From: Hydra vulgaris
Taxonomy: Eukaryota; Cnidaria; Hydrozoa; Anthoathecata; Hydridae
Length of the DNA stretch: 64,000 nt
NCBI RefSeq assembly: GCF_038396675.1
Contig: NC_088930.1
Span: forward strand, 35,258,501 to 35,322,500
Direction: 5' to 3'
Part shown: positions 44,106-62,045 of the stretch, piece by piece
Numbering within the stretch: position 1 is the stretch's first letter
Layout of the letters: the number at the start of each line of letters is the position of its first letter
Notes under the pieces: model-generated
Database searches by the model: none
What the model was told of the DNA's origin: nothing
The model's input: only the letters and a program-made list of their open reading frames with translations
Position numbers and translations under genes: made by a program

Positions 44106-44200
44106 TTCACAGTCCTGGATCTACAAATACTTAACTCGACCGCCGTGGTGAACAGACGTAATTCTAACAGCTCAAAAAAGAAAGAAAAAAAAAATTAAAA

Positions 44201-44935
44201 ATGGCGATTACTTTATCCGAAATAAAAGATATGTTCATTCAGCACAAAAAAGAAATACAAACATTATTTAAAGAACAAGAAAAAGTATTTGTGGACTTAC
44301 TTAGCGATAATTTAAAAATAATCAATACACGCCTAGATGATATTGAAACAAAAACATTGGATTGCACTAAAAGAATACACTTGCTAGAAAATGATATAAA
44401 AGACTTAAAAGAAAGCTTAAATTTTCACGAACATTTAATCGACCAAAAGGTGAAAGCTGCTAATGATTCTAAAGAACTTGAAAGCTCTTATAATATTACA
44501 ATTTTAAACGAAAAATGCAGAATCTCCGAAGATAGATCGCGGCGTAATAACTTAAGGATAGACGGAATTCCTGAAAATATCAACGAAACTTGGGATGAAA
44601 CTGAACAAAAGGTTCAGAATTTATTATGTGTAAATTTAGGAGTAAAAGGAGTCGAAATTGAAAGAGCGCATCGAGTTGGATTTAGAAAAGAAGCCCGATC
44701 CCGAACCATTATATTGAAGTTGTTAAGGTTTAAAGATAAATCAAACATTCTAAAAGAAACAAGAAAACTCAAAGGTCTGAATATTTACGTAAATGAAGAT
44801 TTCTCTCAAGAGACGGCAAGAATACGAAGGAAGTTATTTTCTGAAGCGAAAGTGAGAAAATTAAATGGAGAAAATGTAATCGTCAGGTATGACAAACTTA
44901 TTATTTTAAAAAATGTTTATAATAATTCAAAATGA
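44201..44935 (+). CDS. LINE ORF1, L1-ORF1p-like nucleic-acid binding protein
   Basis: 244 residues, open throughout. The first 110 residues are predicted coiled coil by heptad pattern (IKDMFIQHKKEIQTLFKEQE, later LLENDIKDLKESLNFHE). From about residue 120, SEDRSRRNNLRIDGIPENIN begins an RRM-like domain, with ERAHRVGF and RTIILKLLRFKDK as the later strands. The C-terminal NEDFSQETARIRRKL is the CTD seen in L1-type ORF1 proteins. Such proteins form trimers and coat the LINE RNA as nucleic-acid chaperones. No break is visible. The stop is 56 bp before ORF2. Confidence 0.8.
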   Translation: MAITLSEIKDMFIQHKKEIQTLFKEQEKVFVDLLSDNLKIINTRLDDIETKTLDCTKRIHLLENDIKDLKESLNFHEHLIDQKVKAANDSKELESSYNITILNEKCRISEDRSRRNNLRIDGIPENINETWDETEQKVQNLLCVNLGVKGVEIERAHRVGFRKEARSRTIILKLLRFKDKSNILKETRKLKGLNIYVNEDFSQETARIRRKLFSEAKVRKLNGENVIVRYDKLIILKNVYNNSK

Positions 44936-44991
44936 TATAGCTAGAAATCTAATCATTTTTAATCTTAATTTTAAATATTATAATAATTAAA

Positions 44992-47943
44992 ATGGTTAAC
45001 AAATCAAACGTAACAAATCTTTTAGAAATTTTTAATAAACAAAACACACTTCTTTTGAATAATGATAATGATCCAGATGTAAACTTTTTTGAGGACGTCA
45101 TAATCAACTCTAACTATTTTGATATTGAGGAAGTATCTAACCTCATGAATGCGTCACAAATATTATTTTCAACTCTAACTTTAAACATTCGTAGTATGAA
45201 CAAAAACTTTGAAAGTTTTAAATCAATGCTTAAAAATATAAACTCTGAGTTTACGGTAATATGCTTAATAGAAACATGGTGCAGAAATGAAAAAAATAAT
45301 TTTCAAATTCCAGGTTATAAGGCAATCCACCAAACTCGAGGTGGTGGCATTGGTGGTGGTGTTTGCATTTTTGTTCATGACTCAATCCATTATCAGAAAA
45401 TAGAATTTTTAAGTATTCAAAACGCGGACTTTGAATTTCTAACTATCGAATTATTAAACCACAATAATCAAAAAAACATTTTAATAACTGCTTTGTATAG
45501 ACCGCCTTGTGGAAATAAGAAATCTTTTTTAAAACACTTAAAATGCTACTTAAAAAAAATAAAGCACAAACAAATTTACATCACGGGAGACTATAACCTA
45601 AATCTTCTTAATGTTAAAACTGATAGCGATGTAAAACGTTTCTCAAACACTCTTTTTCAGTACAACATTATTCCCTTAATTAACAAACCTACTCGCGTAA
45701 CTCTTCAAACCGAATCTCTCATTGATAATATTTTTACTAACAACTTTACAACATGCAACATTCAAAGCGGAATCATAAAAAGCGATATAAGCGACCACTT
45801 TCCAATCTTTTTCATTTCGGATTTTTTTAAAAAAGGAAAAAAATGCAAAGTACAAAGGGAAGTAAAAAGGCAGGTTAATGAAACTAATATTGAGGTGTTT
45901 AGAAATTATTTACTCAAAGTAAACTGGAAACAACTCAATAATTGCAAAGATGTTAATATAGCTTATGATTTTTTTTACAATGAGTTCATTAATGCTTACA
46001 ACAAAGCGTTTCCGATGAAGGAAATAAAAACTAAACTTAAAAACCTGCAAAGTCCCTGGATTACAAAAGGGCTTATTAAATCTTCAAAGAAAAAACAAAG
46101 ACTATATGAAAAATTCTTAAAAAATAAAACTTATCAAAACGAAAAAAAATATAAAATTTACAAAAACCTGTTTGAAAACCTGAAAAAGAAAGCTAAAAAA
46201 AATTATTTCTCAAAATCACTACAAAATAATATTGGTAATAACAAAAAAACTTGGGATATAATAAAGGAAGTGATAGGAAAAAATAAACAAGATCATGGTA
46301 ATACTTTACCAAAATATATATACACTGAAGATGAAAGAACAGTAATTAATGAGCGAAAAGTTATTGCAGAGAGTTTTAATAATTATTTTATAAACGTCGG
46401 TCAAAACCTAGCAAATAAAATAACTCCCGGAAATAAAAATTTTAAATCATATATTAAAGAAGAGGACTGTGTGATGGATGAGCATGAAGTATCTCCTGAT
46501 GAACTTCGGTTTGCTTTTAATATTTTAAAACCAAACAAAAGCTCAGGTCTTGATGACATAAGCCCAAGGGTTGTTAAAGAAGTTTTTGATATTATTGAAA
46601 AACCCTTGCTAATTATTTTTAATCTTTCATTTAATAATGGTATTTTTCCTGACCTCTTAAAACTAGCAAGAGTAGTTCCAATTTTTAAAGACGGTGATAT
46701 TTCTAAATTATCTAATTATAGACTTATCTCAATACTTCCATGTTTTTCTAAAATTTTAGAGAGAATAATGCATAATAGGCTATACAATTATTTTATAAAA
46801 CATAAATTGCTTAATAATAATCAGTACGGATTTAGAAAAGGGCACTCGACAGAACATTCAGTAATTAAATTTGTTAAAGAAATTATAAACGGATTTGATA
46901 ACAACCAATATACTCTTGGGGTTTTTATTGACCTCTCAAAGGCCTTCGATACTGTGGATCATACTATTCTTCTTTATTCTTCATACTATTCTTCTTTATC
47001 TTATGACAAAACCTGTACGAAACTAGAAAACATTTCTTGCGGAGTTCCACAGGGATCTATTCTAGGGCCTTTATTATTTATTATCTATATAAACGATATT
47101 TACTTATCTTCTAGTGTATTAAATTTCAATCTTTTTGCTGACGACACTCAGGTTTTTTATACCCACTCAAACATAGAGTCAATCTTTATCACTATTAATC
47201 GTGAGCTTGACAACCTCAATGAATGGTTAAAAGCCAACAAACTCTCTCTAAATAAAACTAAAAGCAAATATATTCTTTTTTCTAAACCCTCCAAATCTGA
47301 AAATTTGCCCCTAAAACTCCCAAATATTTCAATAGAAAAAACTAATTTACAACGGACATTCTGCATTAAATTTTTAGGCGTTTTACTTGACGAACAAATA
47401 AGTTGGAAAGACCACATTAATTTAATAGAAAATAAAATTTCAAAGAGTATTGGAATTATGTACAAGACAAGACATATGTTGGATAAAAACTGCTTAAAAC
47501 TTATCTACTTTTCGTTTATCCATAGCTATATCAGTTATTGTAACATTGCGTGGGCCAGCAATTATCCATCAAAATTAAAGCGTATCTTAAATAAACAAAA
47601 ACAAGCTAGCCGCCTTATATTAAATTCTAATAAATACACCAGTGCCAATCCACTGCTTAAAAAGCTTGGAGTGCTTAATGTTTATCAATTAAATATCTAC
47701 AGTATTCTTTTATTCATGTTTAGATTTAAATATCGTATGCTGCCAAATATTTTTGACGACCTTTTTGTTATTATAAATCATAAATATCAAACAAAGCATT
47801 CATTGCATAACTATCAGGTACCAAAAACCTTATTAAAACAGTCTAATTTCTCAATAGCATACCGAGGGCCACATTTGTGGAACTCATTCCTTCCAATTGA
47901 AAGTAAAACTTTAATTTCACTTCAAACTTTCAAAGTTATTTAA
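44992..47943 (+). CDS. LINE ORF2: endonuclease-reverse transcriptase with internal deletion
   Basis: 983 residues. The N-terminal EEP endonuclease shows LNIRSMNKNF, CLIETWCRN, TALYRPP, ITGDYNLNL and SDISDHFPIFF (catalytic Asp-His). The reverse transcriptase runs from about residue 510: LKPNKSSGLDDISP, ARVVPIFKDGD, NNNQYGFRKGHSTEH, FIDLSKAFDTVDH (motif A), SCGVPQGSILGPLLF (motif B), LFADDTQVFY (motif C). Between motif A and B about 40 residues are expected, as in the relative at 50200..50350, but only about 20 are present, formed by a duplicated TATTCTTC-rich stretch (46960..47000) joined to YDKTCTKLENI. The frame is kept, yet the palm/thumb loop is incomplete, so enzyme activity is doubtful. 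The stop at 47943 comes about 13 codons before the natural end, because the following frame continues with KKQLLDYDISQ. Confidence 0.85.
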   Translation: MVNKSNVTNLLEIFNKQNTLLLNNDNDPDVNFFEDVIINSNYFDIEEVSNLMNASQILFSTLTLNIRSMNKNFESFKSMLKNINSEFTVICLIETWCRNEKNNFQIPGYKAIHQTRGGGIGGGVCIFVHDSIHYQKIEFLSIQNADFEFLTIELLNHNNQKNILITALYRPPCGNKKSFLKHLKCYLKKIKHKQIYITGDYNLNLLNVKTDSDVKRFSNTLFQYNIIPLINKPTRVTLQTESLIDNIFTNNFTTCNIQSGIIKSDISDHFPIFFISDFFKKGKKCKVQREVKRQVNETNIEVFRNYLLKVNWKQLNNCKDVNIAYDFFYNEFINAYNKAFPMKEIKTKLKNLQSPWITKGLIKSSKKKQRLYEKFLKNKTYQNEKKYKIYKNLFENLKKKAKKNYFSKSLQNNIGNNKKTWDIIKEVIGKNKQDHGNTLPKYIYTEDERTVINERKVIAESFNNYFINVGQNLANKITPGNKNFKSYIKEEDCVMDEHEVSPDELRFAFNILKPNKSSGLDDISPRVVKEVFDIIEKPLLIIFNLSFNNGIFPDLLKLARVVPIFKDGDISKLSNYRLISILPCFSKILERIMHNRLYNYFIKHKLLNNNQYGFRKGHSTEHSVIKFVKEIINGFDNNQYTLGVFIDLSKAFDTVDHTILLYSSYYSSLSYDKTCTKLENISCGVPQGSILGPLLFIIYINDIYLSSSVLNFNLFADDTQVFYTHSNIESIFITINRELDNLNEWLKANKLSLNKTKSKYILFSKPSKSENLPLKLPNISIEKTNLQRTFCIKFLGVLLDEQISWKDHINLIENKISKSIGIMYKTRHMLDKNCLKLIYFSFIHSYISYCNIAWASNYPSKLKRILNKQKQASRLILNSNKYTSANPLLKKLGVLNVYQLNIYSILLFMFRFKYRMLPNIFDDLFVIINHKYQTKHSLHNYQVPKTLLKQSNFSIAYRGPHLWNSFLPIESKTLISLQTFKVI

Positions 47944-55430: not shown

Positions 55431-56006
55431 TTAAATTTTTGTCAAAATTGGTCCCCAAGTTTTTGTTTTCACACTTTCCCCGTCATCTCTATTTAGGACA
55501 GTTTGCCCAATACCCATCTCGTGTCGAATTCTTGCTTTATTTATCTCCAGGGATTCTCTATATTTTCTTATCCTGTATTCTGGAATGACTGCCAAGGTTT
55601 TAGGATTCAGCCAATCAAAAGTACCACGGCATGTTCTAGAATGTTCCGTGGCTCCTGAACTCGACCATTTTTGATTTTTACAGACTCTTTGGTGTTCCGC
55701 ACTTCTTGAAACAATTTTCTTTTTGGTCTCACCAATATATATACTTCCGCATGAGCATTTAAGCTCGTAAACACCTGGATTCGAGCTCGGTGGTAGTTTT
55801 GTTTTGTTGTTGCATACTATGTTATTTAAATTGGGAGGTGAAGTAAATATAACTCTGATGTTTTGTTTTTTAAACTCTCTTCGGAGTTTAGGGCCAATAA
55901 TAGGTATCCAAGGTAGTTTAACAAACTGCTTATTTAATTGTCTAGATGTAGTATTTTTTGAAACGCGGTCTAAATAGTTTTTGGTTATTTTAATAAGAAT
56001 TTTTCT
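55431..56006 (-). pseudogene. PLE C-terminal part: linker plus GIY-YIG endonuclease
   Basis: Open minus-strand frame ending at TAA (55431..55433). It reads KNYLDRVSKNTTSRQLNK, WIPIIGPKLRREFKKQNIRV, then NPGVYELKCSCGSIYIGETK, which contains the GVYELxCxCGxxYIGxT form of the GIY-YIG nuclease with the typical Cys pair before it, and AEHQRVC. The last 110 residues (HSRTCRGTFDWLN..., RIRKYRESLEINKA) match the tail of this family. The reverse transcriptase catalytic part is missing upstream, so this is a 5'-truncated copy. The endonuclease part looks intact. Confidence 0.82.
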
Positions 56007-56810
56007 TTACAAAACCTAAAAAAGCATTCACACCTAAAGATATATCCATTTGACAAAGGAGCAGGTTTTGCTTTATTAAACGAAAATGAAGCAAAAGATA
56101 AATTAAAAGAACAAATAAAAAATAGTAAAGTTATTGATTACGACCCAACACCCACATTCACCACTAAATTTCAAAAACTGTTATGTAAATTAAGAAAACA
56201 GGGTAAGTTAGACAATGCCACTTACTTTAAAATGTATCCATCAGATTGCGTTCCACCTAGAATCTATGGAATGGTTAAAGCTCACAAACCAGAAAAAAAC
56301 TACCCAATGCATCCTGTTGTTTCCACTATTAACACACCACCTTATGGATCATCAGAGTATCTGGTTAAAATCATTCAACCAACATTAAATAAAAATGCAA
56401 CTCGACTAATTAATTCAAGTAGTTTTGTCAACGATGCTAAAGAATGGAAGATAGACCCTAATGAAATTCAAGTTTCATTTGATGTAGTAAATTTATATCT
56501 ATCAGTACCGATCGATGAAGCAATACCGGTTATTAATAGCATATTGAACGATGATTTATTGGATTTAAAAACTAGGACTATTCTAAAAACCACGGAACAT
56601 TCTAGAACATGCCGTGGTACTTTTGATTGGCTGAATCCTAAAACCTTGGCAGTCATTCCAGAATACAGGATAAGAAAATATAGAGAATCCCTGGAGATAA
56701 ATAAAGCAAGAATTCGACACGAGATAGGTATTGGGCAAACTGTCCTAAATAGAGATGACGGGGAAAGTGTGAAAACAAAAACTTGGGGACCAATTTTGAC
56801 AAAAATTTAA
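55990..56810 (+). pseudogene. PLE reverse transcriptase N-terminal half fused to C-terminal tail
   Basis: Open + strand frame: YPFDKGAGFALLNENEAKDK, VIDYDPTPTF, PPRIYGMVKAHKP, HPVVSTINTPPYGSSEYL, and SFDVVNLYLSVPIDEAI (reverse transcriptase motif A with its Asp). At about codon for ILKTTEHSRTCRG (near 56590) the frame jumps into the C-terminal tail shared with the minus copy. Motif C, thumb and GIY-YIG core are lost by an internal deletion. Reading frame is kept up to the stop at 56808..56810. Confidence 0.82.
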
Positions 56811-57068: not shown

Positions 57069-57196
<128 letters not shown>

Positions 57197-57480: not shown

Positions 57481-59169
57481 GGAAAGTAAGTTTTGTCCTT
57501 TGACTCGCTAAGAATTATTTTTCAAATCATTTTCCTCTTCTTACCAAAATCATTTTTAAATTCAAACAAAGCTAGTTCAGGTGCAATCTTTTTCCTTTCT
57601 TGAAAGGTTTTTGGCCAAGAAGAACGTAGTTGGTCATTTTAGGCTACGCAAACCGCAATTCATTTACAAAGATTGAAAATTTTTCTCGAGAATGATAGCC
57701 TGTACTCCTTTATATATACCAAACAAATTATCGTTATCGTAGCTCTGACTTTTATAGTTCCTTAACTCAATTTGATCCGAAAAGATTATAATCAGCTTTG
57801 CAATGTCACCCTTTCTTTTTTTAAGATGGTCTTGTTTTATTTTATGAAATCGAGGGTTCATTAAGACAGTCTTAATGAACCCTCGAGCCCAAGAAAACTA
57901 TTGTCTACTTCAAATCACCGTTGAGTGATTTGAAGGGGACGATGGTTTTCATTAACTCAAAGGTTCCTCAGCACTGTTAGTGGCGTGGGATTTTTATTAC
58001 CGAATTGCTATAACCGTTTTTGAAATGAAATTTTGAATATTCAATTATCAACATAGAAATACAGCTATTAAGCTATATCTGGAATACTTTGCCTGACGTA
58101 GAGTTATTAGATGCCGCATTTTTTGATACTCTCTTGAGGCCACACTCTTCCAGTGCACGTTTGTTCCCGGCTTCTTTCACAACATTTTCTGCAGTTTTTA
58201 TTTTGTCTTGGTTTTCGAAACCCATCATGGTCATGGAGTTTTCAATTTATGTTGTGTAAGTAATAAAAATGAGGGAAGTGGTTGAACCTCTATTTGCAAA
58301 AGAAAAATTACTAACTACACGTCTAACTAATTTAATTAACTTTTTACGAATTATTATTATGTTAACAATTTTCACGGGCACGGACGCCCCCGATTCCCCC
58401 GTTCAACGCATTTTAATCAAAAAAAAATGACTTTAGAAAACTAAACTACCTTAAGTTGGTAGATCGAGTAGTTAAATGATATTTGGTAAAGGTCTTGGTT
58501 GTATTTTATCTGGATTGTTTGTAAAGATCATTAATAAACTTACTTATTGTTTGTAAAGACCATTAATTTGTTTTTATTTTTACAATGCATGTGCAAAGCG
58601 TTAACGTAAGAAAAAGAAAAGAGAAAAAAAAAAAAAAATCTTTTTTCTATAAATTTAAAAAAATACAAATTGTTTTTATTTTTAGTGTTCTTAAAAATAG
58701 CATTATAATTATAATCAGTGCATCATCAAAAACAATAATGAAAATGAGAAATGAAAAACAATAATGAAAAGATGAGGAGTTTAAAAAGACTCCAAAGCTG
58801 CATGTTTTCATGCATGATATACCAAAAAGTAATAAGCTAAAAGAATTGTTTAAACAATCATACTTTCAACATTGTCTTCAAATGGTGAAAAATGGTACAG
58901 GTCATGGCTTTGTTATTCTCCTGCAACTAATTAAAACTGTTGTTTTTCACGTTTACAAATTTAAAATGTTGTTTTTCAAAAATAATTTTTCGAAGAAAAT
59001 TCACTCTCAAACAAGGTCGATTGACTAAATAAATGCTATTGCAAAAATAAATACCAGATAATAATGATAAATACAGGATAAATGAAAAAAATAAATTGTT
59101 AGCTCATTCTATTACAATGATAATCTCATGCGATTAATAAATTAAAGCATTAAAAAGTTTATGGTTCTA
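57481..59169. other. Spacer with two hairpins
   Basis: Perfect hairpins lie at 57851..57885 (CGAGGGTTCATTAAGAC, 17-bp arms, one-base loop) and 57908..57935 (CTTCAAATCAC, 11-bp arms). A minus-strand frame at 57861..57664 and a + frame at 58810..59028 have no recognised domain. Part of this may belong to the hAT relic to the left. Confidence 0.4.
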
Positions 59170-59181
59170 CACCTTTTCAAG

Positions 59182-59430
59182 ATGTAATTGAGAACTTGAA
59201 ATTTGTAATTAAGAAAAGTAAGATGTAATTGAGAAATACAACATGCAATTTAGAAGTTGCAATATGTAATTAAGAAACACAACATGTAATTAGGAAATTT
59301 TAAAGTATAATTGAGAAACCCAACATATAAATAAGAAATCGCAATATGTAATTAGAAAAACAAAAGTTGTAATTAAGAAATCGTAATATGCAAATGAGAA
59401 TAAGTTATTTGTAATTGCGAATTCACAATG
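59182..59430 (+). repeat. Iteron array, 12 units of 20-21 bp
   Basis: Units share the core ATGTAATTnAGAAA with a variable 7-base end (for example ATGTAATTGAGAAATACAAC and ATGTAATTAAGAAACACAAC). Unit lengths by count are 20 or 21 bp, so the cores recur on about the same face of the helix every two turns. They sit just inside the transposon end. Confidence 0.85.
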
Positions 59431-59533
59431 TAAGTTTAAAGGTCATTATAAAAGATCTTCTTGGACATGCATTTTAATAAGTTGGTTATATCAAATTTAT
59501 CATTTGTATGCACCAACAATCAGTAATACAGTA

Positions 59534-59680
59534 ATGGAATTGAAAGATCGTTGTGTTATTTGTCAATACACTATGAATAGAAAGTCTGTTATCAAATTGA
59601 ATCCGTGCAAGCATTTATTTCACCAAATTTGTTTACAACCACTTCTGAAACAACCAGAACCACCTTGTCTAATTTGTTGA
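59534..59680 (+). pseudogene. RING-H2 zinc finger, left copy
   Basis: 48 codons from ATG to TGA. MELKDRCVIC begins the motif; ligands are Cys7, Cys10, Cys25, His27, His30, Cys33, Cys45, Cys48, exactly the C-x2-C-x14-C-x-H-x2-H-x2-C-x11-C-x2-C of a RING-H2 (C3H2C3) domain. RING fingers usually recruit E2 enzymes for ubiquitin or SUMO transfer. In frame after TGA (with one further TAA) the reading continues HTTEQVERKYYVLSSSNDRS into the transposase. So the RING was either the N-terminus of a fused transposase broken by the stop or a separate small protein. The minus-strand copy (61637..61491) has the same eight ligands and the same TGA. Confidence 0.75.
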
Positions 59681-59698
59681 TATTAAATACATACAACT

Positions 59699-60598
59699 GA
59701 ACAAGTTGAAAGAAAATATTATGTTTTATCTTCATCAAATGATAGAAGTAGAGTAATTGAATGTGCTGAGCGAAACGACGATTGGGTGACTCTGGCGCAA
59801 ACTTTATGTGTCAAATATACATACATACAATTATGTCCGCAATTATGACAGCATACAATTGTGTCCGCAGCGGAAATTTAAATTTTATTGGAAAAGGTGG
59901 TTTTAAACCAAAACAATTAACTAATGATCAAATCGTAGAAACACTAACATGGATTGAAAGTTGACATTGGTGGCCATTAAAGCAAGAGTATTAAGACAAT
60001 TTAATATTAGCGTCAGCACAACCACAACTACCAATTACCTCAAAGACAGACTATTTTCATTTAAAAAAGTGCACAATAAGCCTACTACAATGAATAGTAA
60101 TGAAAAAAACAAAAAAGAGCTAAATATGTTGGAACATTAACGAACACATCACAAATGGTCATCAGATAGCTTGGTTGGATGAAACAAATTTTAATTTTTT
60201 TTGTAGGAAAAATGCAAGGACGTGCCAAATAGGAAAAAAGAGCAATGATGAAAATACATTCTTCAAAAGGTGCAAATATACATTTGATTGCAGCTATATC
60301 AACAACAAATGTTGTCATGATGGAAACTCGCAGAGGATCATTTATTGTAGATTCTTGTTACGAGTGGATGTTGGCTTTGTTTAACCAGTGGGTTACATCC
60401 GGGAATCGTTTAGAGGATTTGGGAGCTAATGAATTTTCAAACACCCTTTCCAAACAGACAATGCTCCATGTCGCGTTTGGAAAGGGTGTTTAAAAATTCA
60501 TTAGCTCAGTTGTTGTGTTTAGGACCCCACAATCCAATGTTAAACCCAGTGGAAACTATCTGGTCCAAAATAAAAATAAACGTTAAAAATGCAATATT
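59699..60598 (+). pseudogene. Tc1/IS630-like DDE transposase, left copy
   Basis: Decayed + strand frames: AERNDDWVTLAQTLCVKY and AYNCVRSGN form a helix-turn-helix-like region; then QLTNDQIVETLTWIE; AWLDETNFNFFCRKN with the first catalytic Asp; SSKGANIHLIAAIS; RRGSFIVDSCYEWML; TDNAPCH with the second Asp (60459..60476); and LGPHNPMLNPVETIWSK with the final Glu (about 60523..60573). Order and spacing are those of the IS630/Tc1/mariner group with a DDE triad. At least three frameshifts, so inactive. Inserted palindromic AAACACCCTTTCC/GGAAAGGGTGTTT around 60440..60492 disturbs the region near the second Asp. Confidence 0.78.
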
Positions 60599-60601
60599 TA
60601 G

Positions 60602-61637
60602 TTAAGCACCAACTTGGACGTCTTCCAAATTTAAAAACTGTTGCGTAATACGTGGTTGTATGTTGTACAGCGCGTGTACAATCGCCGCCTATTATTGGAT
60701 TTTTTACCGCAGTAACAATTCTTTCTAAATATTGCATATTAGTTATTAGATAATCTTAGTTGTTAGATAATCTCAGCACCGAATACAGGTAGAATGCGAA
60801 TCACATTTTTAACGTTTATTCTTATTTTGGACCAGATAGTTTCCACTGGGTTTAACATTGGATTGTGGGGTCCTAAACACAACAACTAAGCTAATGAATT
60901 TTCAAACATTAAATGATCCTTTGCAAGATTTGTTGTTGATATAGCTGCAATCAAATTTATGTTTTCACCTTATTAAGCATGTATTTTCATTATTGCTTTT
61001 CTATCCTGTTTGGCACGTTCTTGCGTTTTTTTACAAAAAATATTAAAATTTGTTTCCTCCAACCAAACTATCTGATGACCATTTGTGATGTGTTCGTTGA
61101 TGTTCCTAACATATTCAGCTCTTTTTTTGTTTTGTTTTTGTTACTGTTCATTGTACAAGACTCGTTGTGCACATTTTTTAATGAAAACAATCTGCCTTTG
61201 AGGTAATTAGTGATTATTGTTATGCTGACGCTAATACTAAAGTGTCCTAGTATTTTTGTTTTGATGGCTACCAATTTTAAATAACAGTCACTTTCAATCC
61301 ATGTTAACGTTTCCTCAGTCAATTTTTTGGGTTCAAAACCACCTCTTCCAATAAAACTTAAATTTCTGCTGCGAACTCAATTGTAAGCTGTTTTGTATTT
61401 GACACCTTAAGCTTGCGTCAGAGTCGCTCAATCGTCATTTCGCTCAGAGTAATGTTTTCTTTCAACTTGTTCAGTTGTATGTATTTCATATCAACAAATT
61501 GGACAAGTTGGTTCTGGTTGTTCCAGAAGTGAATGTAAACAAATTTGGTGAAATAAATGCTTGCATGGATTCAATTTAATAACAGACTTTCTATTCATAG
61601 TGTATTGACAAATAACACAACGATCTTTCAAATCCAT
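60602..61637 (-). pseudogene. RING plus DDE transposase, right (inverted) copy
   Basis: From 61637 on the minus strand: MDLKDRCVICQYTMNRKSVI with all eight RING-H2 ligands, TGA at 61493..61491, then YEIHTTEQVERK, the TLTWIESDCYLKLVAIKTK segment near 61300, TNTSQMVIRxxWxEETNFN near 61070, a deletion of about 140 bp that removes the second Asp, then NPMLNPVETIWSKIRINVKN (60870..60810). The C-terminus continues through 60738..60602: MQYLERIVTAVKNPIIGGDC and TRAVQHTTTYYATVF, present only in this orientation and so supplied by the loop of the palindrome. Inactive. Confidence 0.75.
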
Positions 61638-61740
61638 TACTGTATTACTGATTGCTGGTGCATACAAATGCTAAATTTGATATTATTAACTTATTAAAAT
61701 GCATGTCCACGAAGATCTTTTATAATGACCTTTAAACTTA

Positions 61741-62032
61741 CATTGTGAATTCGCAATTACAAATAATGTATTCTTATTTGCATACTACGATTTCTTAATT
61801 ACAACTTTTATTTTTCTAATTACATATTGCGATTTGTTATTTACATGTTGGGTTTCTCAATTACATTTTAAAATTTCCAAATTACATTGTTGTGTTTTTT
61901 AATTACATATTGCGATTTCTAAATAGCATGTTGTATTTCTCAATTACATTTTACAATTTCTAAATTACATGTTTTATTTCTCAATTACATCTTACTTTTC
62001 TTAATTACAACTTTCAAGTTCTCAATTACATT
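61741..62032 (-). repeat. Iteron array, 14 units of 20-21 bp
   Basis: Inverted counterpart of 59182..59430. By hand alignment it has the same 12 units plus two extra (ATGTAATTTAGAAATTGTAA and ATGTAATTGAGAAATACAAC) between units 3 and 4 of the left array. Confidence 0.83.
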
Positions 62033-62045
62033 TTGAAAAGGTGTA

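Follow-up and report, generated by a model that had tools for sequence, protein, structure and literature searches.

A palindromic transposon derivative in Hydra vulgaris and its IS630/Tc1/mariner family with a predicted RING-H2–transposase fusion

Introduction

In RAG1 and the Chapaev/Transib elements a single protein combines a DDE recombinase with a RING finger on its N-terminal side (PMC4411706, in its passages on these proteins), and RAG1/Chapaev is the nearest precedent for the fusion described here. As of 2015, the same passages give the Chapaev/Transib/RAG1 group as the only one in which RING fingers of transposable elements were known, which agrees with the statement of an earlier note on this DNA that a RING is no standard part of Tc1/IS630-type transposases. 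The RAG1 RING is described in the pertinent parts of PMC3949197 as an E3 ligase that autoubiquitinates and ubiquitinates histone H3, with joining defects in RING mutants, and also as not required for the V(D)J recombination activity of RAG1. Its purpose is still debated, and a separate superfamily with the same design offers an independent comparison. In type, the RAG1 RING is C3HC4.

Among the Tc1/mariner elements, the text of a survey of 5158 of them contains no word beginning with "ring" (PMC7325037), and the ciliate TBE elements, in that paper's passage on them, have an ORF of its own for a zinc-finger protein. The HvSm family of Tc1/mariner elements from Hydra vulgaris and Schmidtea resembles the family described below in its Hydra host, its TA duplication and its length of 1.7–2.75 kb; it differs in being DD34E, in its 15–56-bp repeats and in its transposase ORFs of 585–1106 bp, and the passages of PMC7325037 on it mention no RING. 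A ubiquitin-ligase component is joined to a Tc1/mariner part, as in the Hydra family, in the Caenorhabditis F-box proteins with a Tc1/mariner helix-turn-helix (HTH), but there, according to the relevant passages of PMC12062965, a host gene took up a transposon domain, whereas in Hydra the transposon carries a ligase-type domain. Among titles and abstract openings in the open literature, none was found that describes a Tc1/mariner transposase with a RING; a Repbase entry of the element may exist.

A palindromic element made of two left halves

The window, a stretch of 64,000 nucleotides of the Hydra vulgaris genome (C11:35258501-35322500), contains an element of 2,874 bp (59170-62043) in which the left half of a DNA transposon of ~2.0-2.1 kb is present twice, in inverted orientation. 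Its parts, in window positions, are as follows.

59168..59169, unstranded: TA of the target-site duplication on the left side, reading ...ttcTA and then CACCTTTTCAAG
59170..59421, + strand: left terminal inverted repeat of ~20-21-bp subrepeats (repeat families D1 and D5; terminal motif)
59534..59677, + strand: left-arm RING-H2 finger, which starts with ATG and spans 48 codons (8/8 zinc ligands; PF13639 at 31.9 bits)
59678..59680, + strand: TGA replacing the family's Arg49 codon, left arm (reading against family copies)
59681..60116, + strand: linker and HTH region of the left arm, frame broken (tblastn within the window; inverted arms I4, I9)
60124..60592, + strand: DDE domain of the left arm, in broken frames (DDE_3 fragment with E 0.0044, below cut-off)
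60178-60180, 60457-60459 and 60552-60554, + strand: left-arm catalytic codons D1, D2 and E (motif location)
60424..60514, unstranded: small inverted duplication around the DNAPC codons, left arm (inverted self-match 60423-60507, 86%)
60583..60592, unstranded: head-to-head joint of the two left halves, ~9 nt being common to both sides (junction search)
60583..61490, - strand: linker, HTH and DDE (to the C-terminal end) of the right arm (arm alignment, tblastn, reading)
61491..61493, - strand: TGA replacing Arg49, right arm (sequence reading)
61494..61637, - strand: RING-H2 finger of the right arm (PF13639 at 36.9 bits)
61760..62043, - strand: terminal repeat of the right arm, a second left transposon end and not a right end (match to L033)
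62044..62045, unstranded: TA of the target-site duplication on the right side, reading ...GGTG and then TAcactt

The outer ends thus read TA-CACCTTTTCAAGATGTAATTGAGAA ... TTCTCAATTACATTTTGAAAAGGTG-TA, with terminal repeats built of 20-21-bp subrepeats. The arms are 87.6% identical to each other (1088/1242 aligned bases). In the left arm the DDE motifs DETNF, DNAPC and NPVE lie at 60178, 60457 and ~60546, while the right arm has lost its second Asp by an internal deletion and has Glu for the first Asp (codon at 61059). At its outer end the right arm aligns with the left end of the fuller copy L033 at 84% over 692 nt, as against 77% over 257 nt for the right end of that copy; since it is the left end that is matched, the element is read as two left halves joined head-to-head, both of which would derive from a copy that already had the TGA.

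A query of 151 bases spanning the joint gave 74 matches, and among the 40 of 394 candidates scored only the window matched it from end to end (1-151); other places matched query positions 1-62 or those from ~54 onward, on opposite strands. The palindrome therefore looks one-off, and on the same junction search its reading as a mobile subfamily was rejected. Within the left arm, the duplication at 60424-60514 has arms of ~30 nt and resembles a scar left by template switching, which may point to the route by which the large palindrome formed.

Elsewhere in the genome, TA stands outside 17/20 detected left ends and 11/14 detected right ends of other copies (21 loci). The six copies in which both ends were recognised are 1.95-2.13 kb long, and their ends match one another at 68-79% over 141-254 bp.

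The RING-H2 finger and the codon that follows it

The RING-H2 finger is complete in both inverted arms, as the earlier note had it: the ligands are C7, C10, C25, H27, H30, C33, C45 and C48, and the two scores exceed the PF13639 (zf-RING_2) cut-off of 27.3 bits (E 1.6e-7 and 4.5e-9). The whole genome (911,502,276 bases in 15 contigs) holds at least 150 copies of it at 80-100% identity (150 of 741 candidates scored). A RING confined to the two arms, the finding that the earlier note had set against its own proposal, is refuted by these copies, and together with the Pfam E values they leave scarcely any probability to the reading of the motif as chance or as an assembly artefact of the arms.

Family-wide comparison was based on 54 distinct copies, i.e., 52 loci and the two window arms, which remained after stretches with short RING matches had been dropped and the 67 left had been cleared of those sharing the same first 200 nt. 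Every zinc ligand is retained by 47-52 copies out of the 52-53 that could be read at its position, a count biased towards conservation because RING similarity mostly decided the ranking of the copies.

In both arms a TGA directly follows the last RING Cys codon, which might suggest a small RING protein of its own that stops there, with the transposase as a second ORF. The earlier note had left room for this, and TGA is indeed found in frame at codon 49 in both window arms and in L020. Yet codon 49 across the 54 copies is AGA in 38, AGG in 3, AAA in 2, in-frame TGA in these 3 and shifted in 8; with one arm left out, residue 49 is Arg in 49/53, Lys in 2 and a stop in 2. In 20 copies fetched widely, as 7-kb stretches for frame reading, Arg directly follows the last RING Cys in 20/20 (18 AGA, one AGG and one count-shifted through an in-frame codon deletion). 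With Arg as the family codon and a continuous frame beyond it, the separate-protein reading is refuted for the family and in general retains a very small probability. What stood of the earlier observation is the presence of the TGA in both arms; as a trait of the family it fell. Two copies, L026 and L042, share with the window a next codon that starts with TA and nevertheless keep AGA, so that AGA would have become TGA in the window lineage, most simply before the palindrome formed. As read from the aligned copies, the window TGA is a nonsense mutation of the family's Arg codon, inherited by both arms.

One frame for the RING and the transposase

In 20/20 of the widely fetched copies a single frame covers the RING and the beginning of the transposase. 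The column-majority frame of the 54 copies is 419 codons long from stop to stop, 410 from an upstream ATG and 401 from MELK, and the single ORF across both parts for which the earlier note proposed to look is thus open over 401 codons in the majority. The majority protein has the RING-H2 at 7-48, Arg at 49, a putative HTH region to ~165, and the DDE residues D211, D295 and E328. In its 401 residues both domains score above their cut-offs, PF13639 at 36.6 bits and PF13358 (DDE_3; cut-off 28.6 bits) at 62.5 bits. Among natural copies one domain each exceeds the cut-off, namely the RING in L033, L036 and L038 and DDE_3 in L061 (47.6 bits); in L031, where both lie in one frame, they fall just under it (RING 25.3 vs 27.3; DDE_3 28.1 vs 28.6). 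The joining of a RING to a Tc1/IS630-type DDE transposase, proposed in the earlier note, is borne out at the level of the family. The proposed order with the RING in front was also right, while the gap of about 80 codons was not: the transposase part follows the RING directly, with likeness to other transposases beginning ~24 residues past it and the first catalytic Asp at residue 211.

None of the 54 copies has an intact full frame, i.e., reaches 390 residues from the RING start (longest 302), 50 of the stretches being long enough to show one and four too short. When the 302-residue reading was used as a query (130 of 2,282 candidates scored), residues 1-302 were free of stops in the query's own copy alone, and there a stop directly follows residue 302. 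The fused protein is thus a reading of the family majority and not of any one copy. The best stretch of the 130 scored places begins at residue 16 or before in 86, at 17-49 in 15 and beyond 49 in 29 (126 counted by program, the last four by eye).

Six copies with no listed RING were chosen from the last of these groups. The RING is whole in L071 and frame-shifted in L072, L075 and L076, and the remaining two are damaged on the 5' side: the last ~30 nt of the RING remain in L074, while L073 lacks it and starts inside the HTH region. Intact RING-less copies, which the earlier note had named as evidence against its proposal, were thus not encountered among those examined, with 0/54 intact and a RING in four of the six chosen. 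Three hits fetched at 55-61% identity (L077-L079) included no older RING-bearing subfamily; all three proved to be decayed members of the family described here, with 87-95% DNA identity to the majority.

On this reading of the copies, the family encodes a single predicted RING-transposase protein, and the fusion, which is multi-copy, was already present in the ancestor of those sampled, with the TGA arising later. The element in the window is, in our judgement probably, a dead palindromic derivative of a TA-inserting IS630/Tc1/mariner family whose transposase of ~401 residues combined a RING-H2, a likely E3, with a putative HTH and a DD32E domain. This transposon family accounts for at least 96 of the genome's 149 listed zf-RING_2 matches, and RING gene counts in the genome can therefore be inflated.

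Placement among the DDE transposases

TA target-site duplications, terminal inverted repeats and a DDE_3 domain, which is above cut-off in both L061 and the majority reading, together place the family in the IS630/Tc1/mariner superfamily. The second Asp and the Glu are separated by 32 residues (DD32E), and for this reason it is not filed in Tc1 (DD34E), mariner (DD34D) or HvSm (DD34E). Matches to HTH_32, HTH_17 and HTH_23 are all under the Pfam cut-offs, and part of the HTH region is similar to L062.

Nine DDE_3 copies of the same genome (L062-L070; six groups with <60% mutual identity), picked for long open frames rather than at random and five of them scanned in Pfam, allow a comparison by protein part. 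They share with the family DDE_3, motifs of the DETNF, DNAPC and NPVE type and a putative HTH region before the DDE, and the family's DDE part is homologous to those of L062, L063 and L067-L070 (E 9e-22 to 6e-10); its terminal inverted repeats and TA flanks are likewise IS630/Tc1/mariner traits. The nine have 34 residues between the second D and the E as against 32 in the family, and their longest frames are without a RING, whereas the family adds a RING-H2 at the N-terminus. It differs from its superfamily relatives also in terminal repeats made of ~20-bp subrepeats. From these sequences, the RING and the DD32E spacing set the family apart from the nine sampled RING-less copies. One of these, L065, belongs to a DDE_3 family that has an open frame of 361 aa and many equal-score places (C1:9641975, C3:20517793 and others); it is apparently a young RING-less Tc1-like family.

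The family departs from RAG1, Chapaev and Transib in its transposase superfamily, its TA target and its RING-H2. The Transib/Chapaev core is absent, as judged from the DDE_3 domain and the TA flanks rather than from an alignment to a Transib/Chapaev profile. Absent too is a Chapa zinc domain before the RING, the majority frame having 18 residues ahead of MELK and then a stop. Related loci were not confirmed among 5 and 54 pattern matches in viral contigs or among 44 in prokaryote contigs, collections with little bearing on animals.

The fusion amends the 2015 statement in PMC4411706, as its passages on transposable elements word it, that limited transposon RINGs to the Chapaev/Transib group. 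That an IS630/Tc1/mariner transposase gained an N-terminal E3 independently of Chapaev/RAG1, acting on the transposase or on cut-site proteins, and that the RING-plus-DDE design is accordingly of convergent origin, is a reading to which we give about an even chance.

What the RING may do

The solved structures with the best sequence scores to the RING are those of ARK2C/RNF165 and Arkadia (E 7.6e-5 to 3.8e-4), and no RAG1 chain occurs among the 52 PDB matches up to E 1. With the RING-H2 E3s ARK2C/RNF165, Arkadia and RNF126 the family shares the C3H2C3 pattern, an Ile and a Pro within the first and last CxxC, respectively, and the linchpin Arg; it differs from them in having Leu for the E2-contacting Trp and in being joined to a transposase. 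Ile of the first CxxC and Pro of the last are features of active RING E3 ligases, and they are found here as Ile9 in 50/53 copies and Pro46 in 41/52. Leu37 occupies the position of Arkadia Trp972 in 48/53. The Ile, Pro and linchpin Arg of the active-E3 residue set are accordingly all present, and the central-helix Trp is missing; some active RINGs lack this E2-contacting Trp, and it was for that reason not treated as defining. The linchpin is the residue after the last zinc ligand, at which Arg is the most frequent and the most effective (PMC7667886, in its passages on the linchpin) and, in Arkadia, essential for activity (corresponding passages of PMC9954413). Arg49 stands at this E2-activating position, and from the sequence a working ubiquitin ligase would therefore be the likeliest role.

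It is also conceivable, though unlikely, that the RING is fused and yet no ligase, serving instead as a zinc-stabilised dimerisation head or as one that binds DNA or protein. Non-catalytic zinc domains occur in other transposases, and the Leu in place of the Arkadia Trp that contacts the E2 would suit such a head, as would the dimerisation of the zinc region adjoining the RAG1 RING (PMC3949197, in its account of that region). However, Ile9, Pro46 and Arg49, the last in nearly all readable copies, are those of E2-activating RINGs, and the top solved relatives by sequence (ARK2C, RNF165, Arkadia) are E3s.

In the ligase reading, which we prefer, the HTH would bind the ~20-bp subrepeats of the terminal repeats and the DDE domain would perform cut-and-paste at TA, while the RING would act as a working E3 module that binds E2~ubiquitin, to judge from Ile9, Pro46 and Arg49 and with Leu for the Arkadia Trp. 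It would most likely ubiquitinate the transposase itself or proteins of the cut site, such as those of chromatin and repair, and this might limit the life of the transposase or help release and repair, by analogy with the RAG1 RING. If the RING tunes transposase life or aids joining here too, a general use of this design is probable.

Selection on the RING

Amino-acid-changing and silent variants (N:S) were counted with low-identity stretches masked, those found in a single copy being compared with those shared by three or more. For the RING the counts are 64:14 and 15:11 (Fisher p 0.017; p 0.044 when doubletons are pooled into the singletons), for the linker and HTH 223:67 and 48:25 (p 0.07), for DDE 273:93 and 62:27 (p 0.35), and for the whole ORF 560:174 and 125:63 (p 0.009). 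Both in the RING and in the whole ORF, amino-acid changes thus make up a smaller part of the shared variants than of the singletons; an unmasked count, which takes in non-homologous tails in the DDE part, gives no depletion in DDE. The comparison of shared with single variants is less exposed than the other RING counts to the RING-based choice of copies. It gives modest support, weak for each domain and from copies mostly chosen by their RING, to the view that the RING has been kept by selection.

These counts bear on the proposal that the RING is a passenger, i.e., a host exon that one copy captured before it multiplied and that plays no part in transposition. A single RING-bearing family was found, the mean distance of its copies from the majority is 3.5-5.2%, as a single burst would leave, and the nine sampled related transposases lack a RING, all of which would be in keeping with such a capture. 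Against this, the RING lies in frame at the transposase start with no intron, its shared variants have fewer amino-acid changes than the singletons, and the ligands and linchpin are kept in nearly all copies, mostly RING-chosen as these are; on balance the passenger reading appears improbable.

Other features of the window

The GC content of the window is 24.5-33% in 4-kb steps, and Rfam and tRNA scans of it were empty. A long (TA)n tract lies at 57072-57195, ~2 kb ahead of the element. At 55431-56810, two diverging ORFs share a near-identical terminal stretch of ~70 residues, which suggests another inverted duplication, perhaps of a retroelement. At 44168-47943 an ORF of 255 aa is followed by one of 996 aa with, by eye, endonuclease- and reverse-transcriptase-like features, which is probably a recent LINE.
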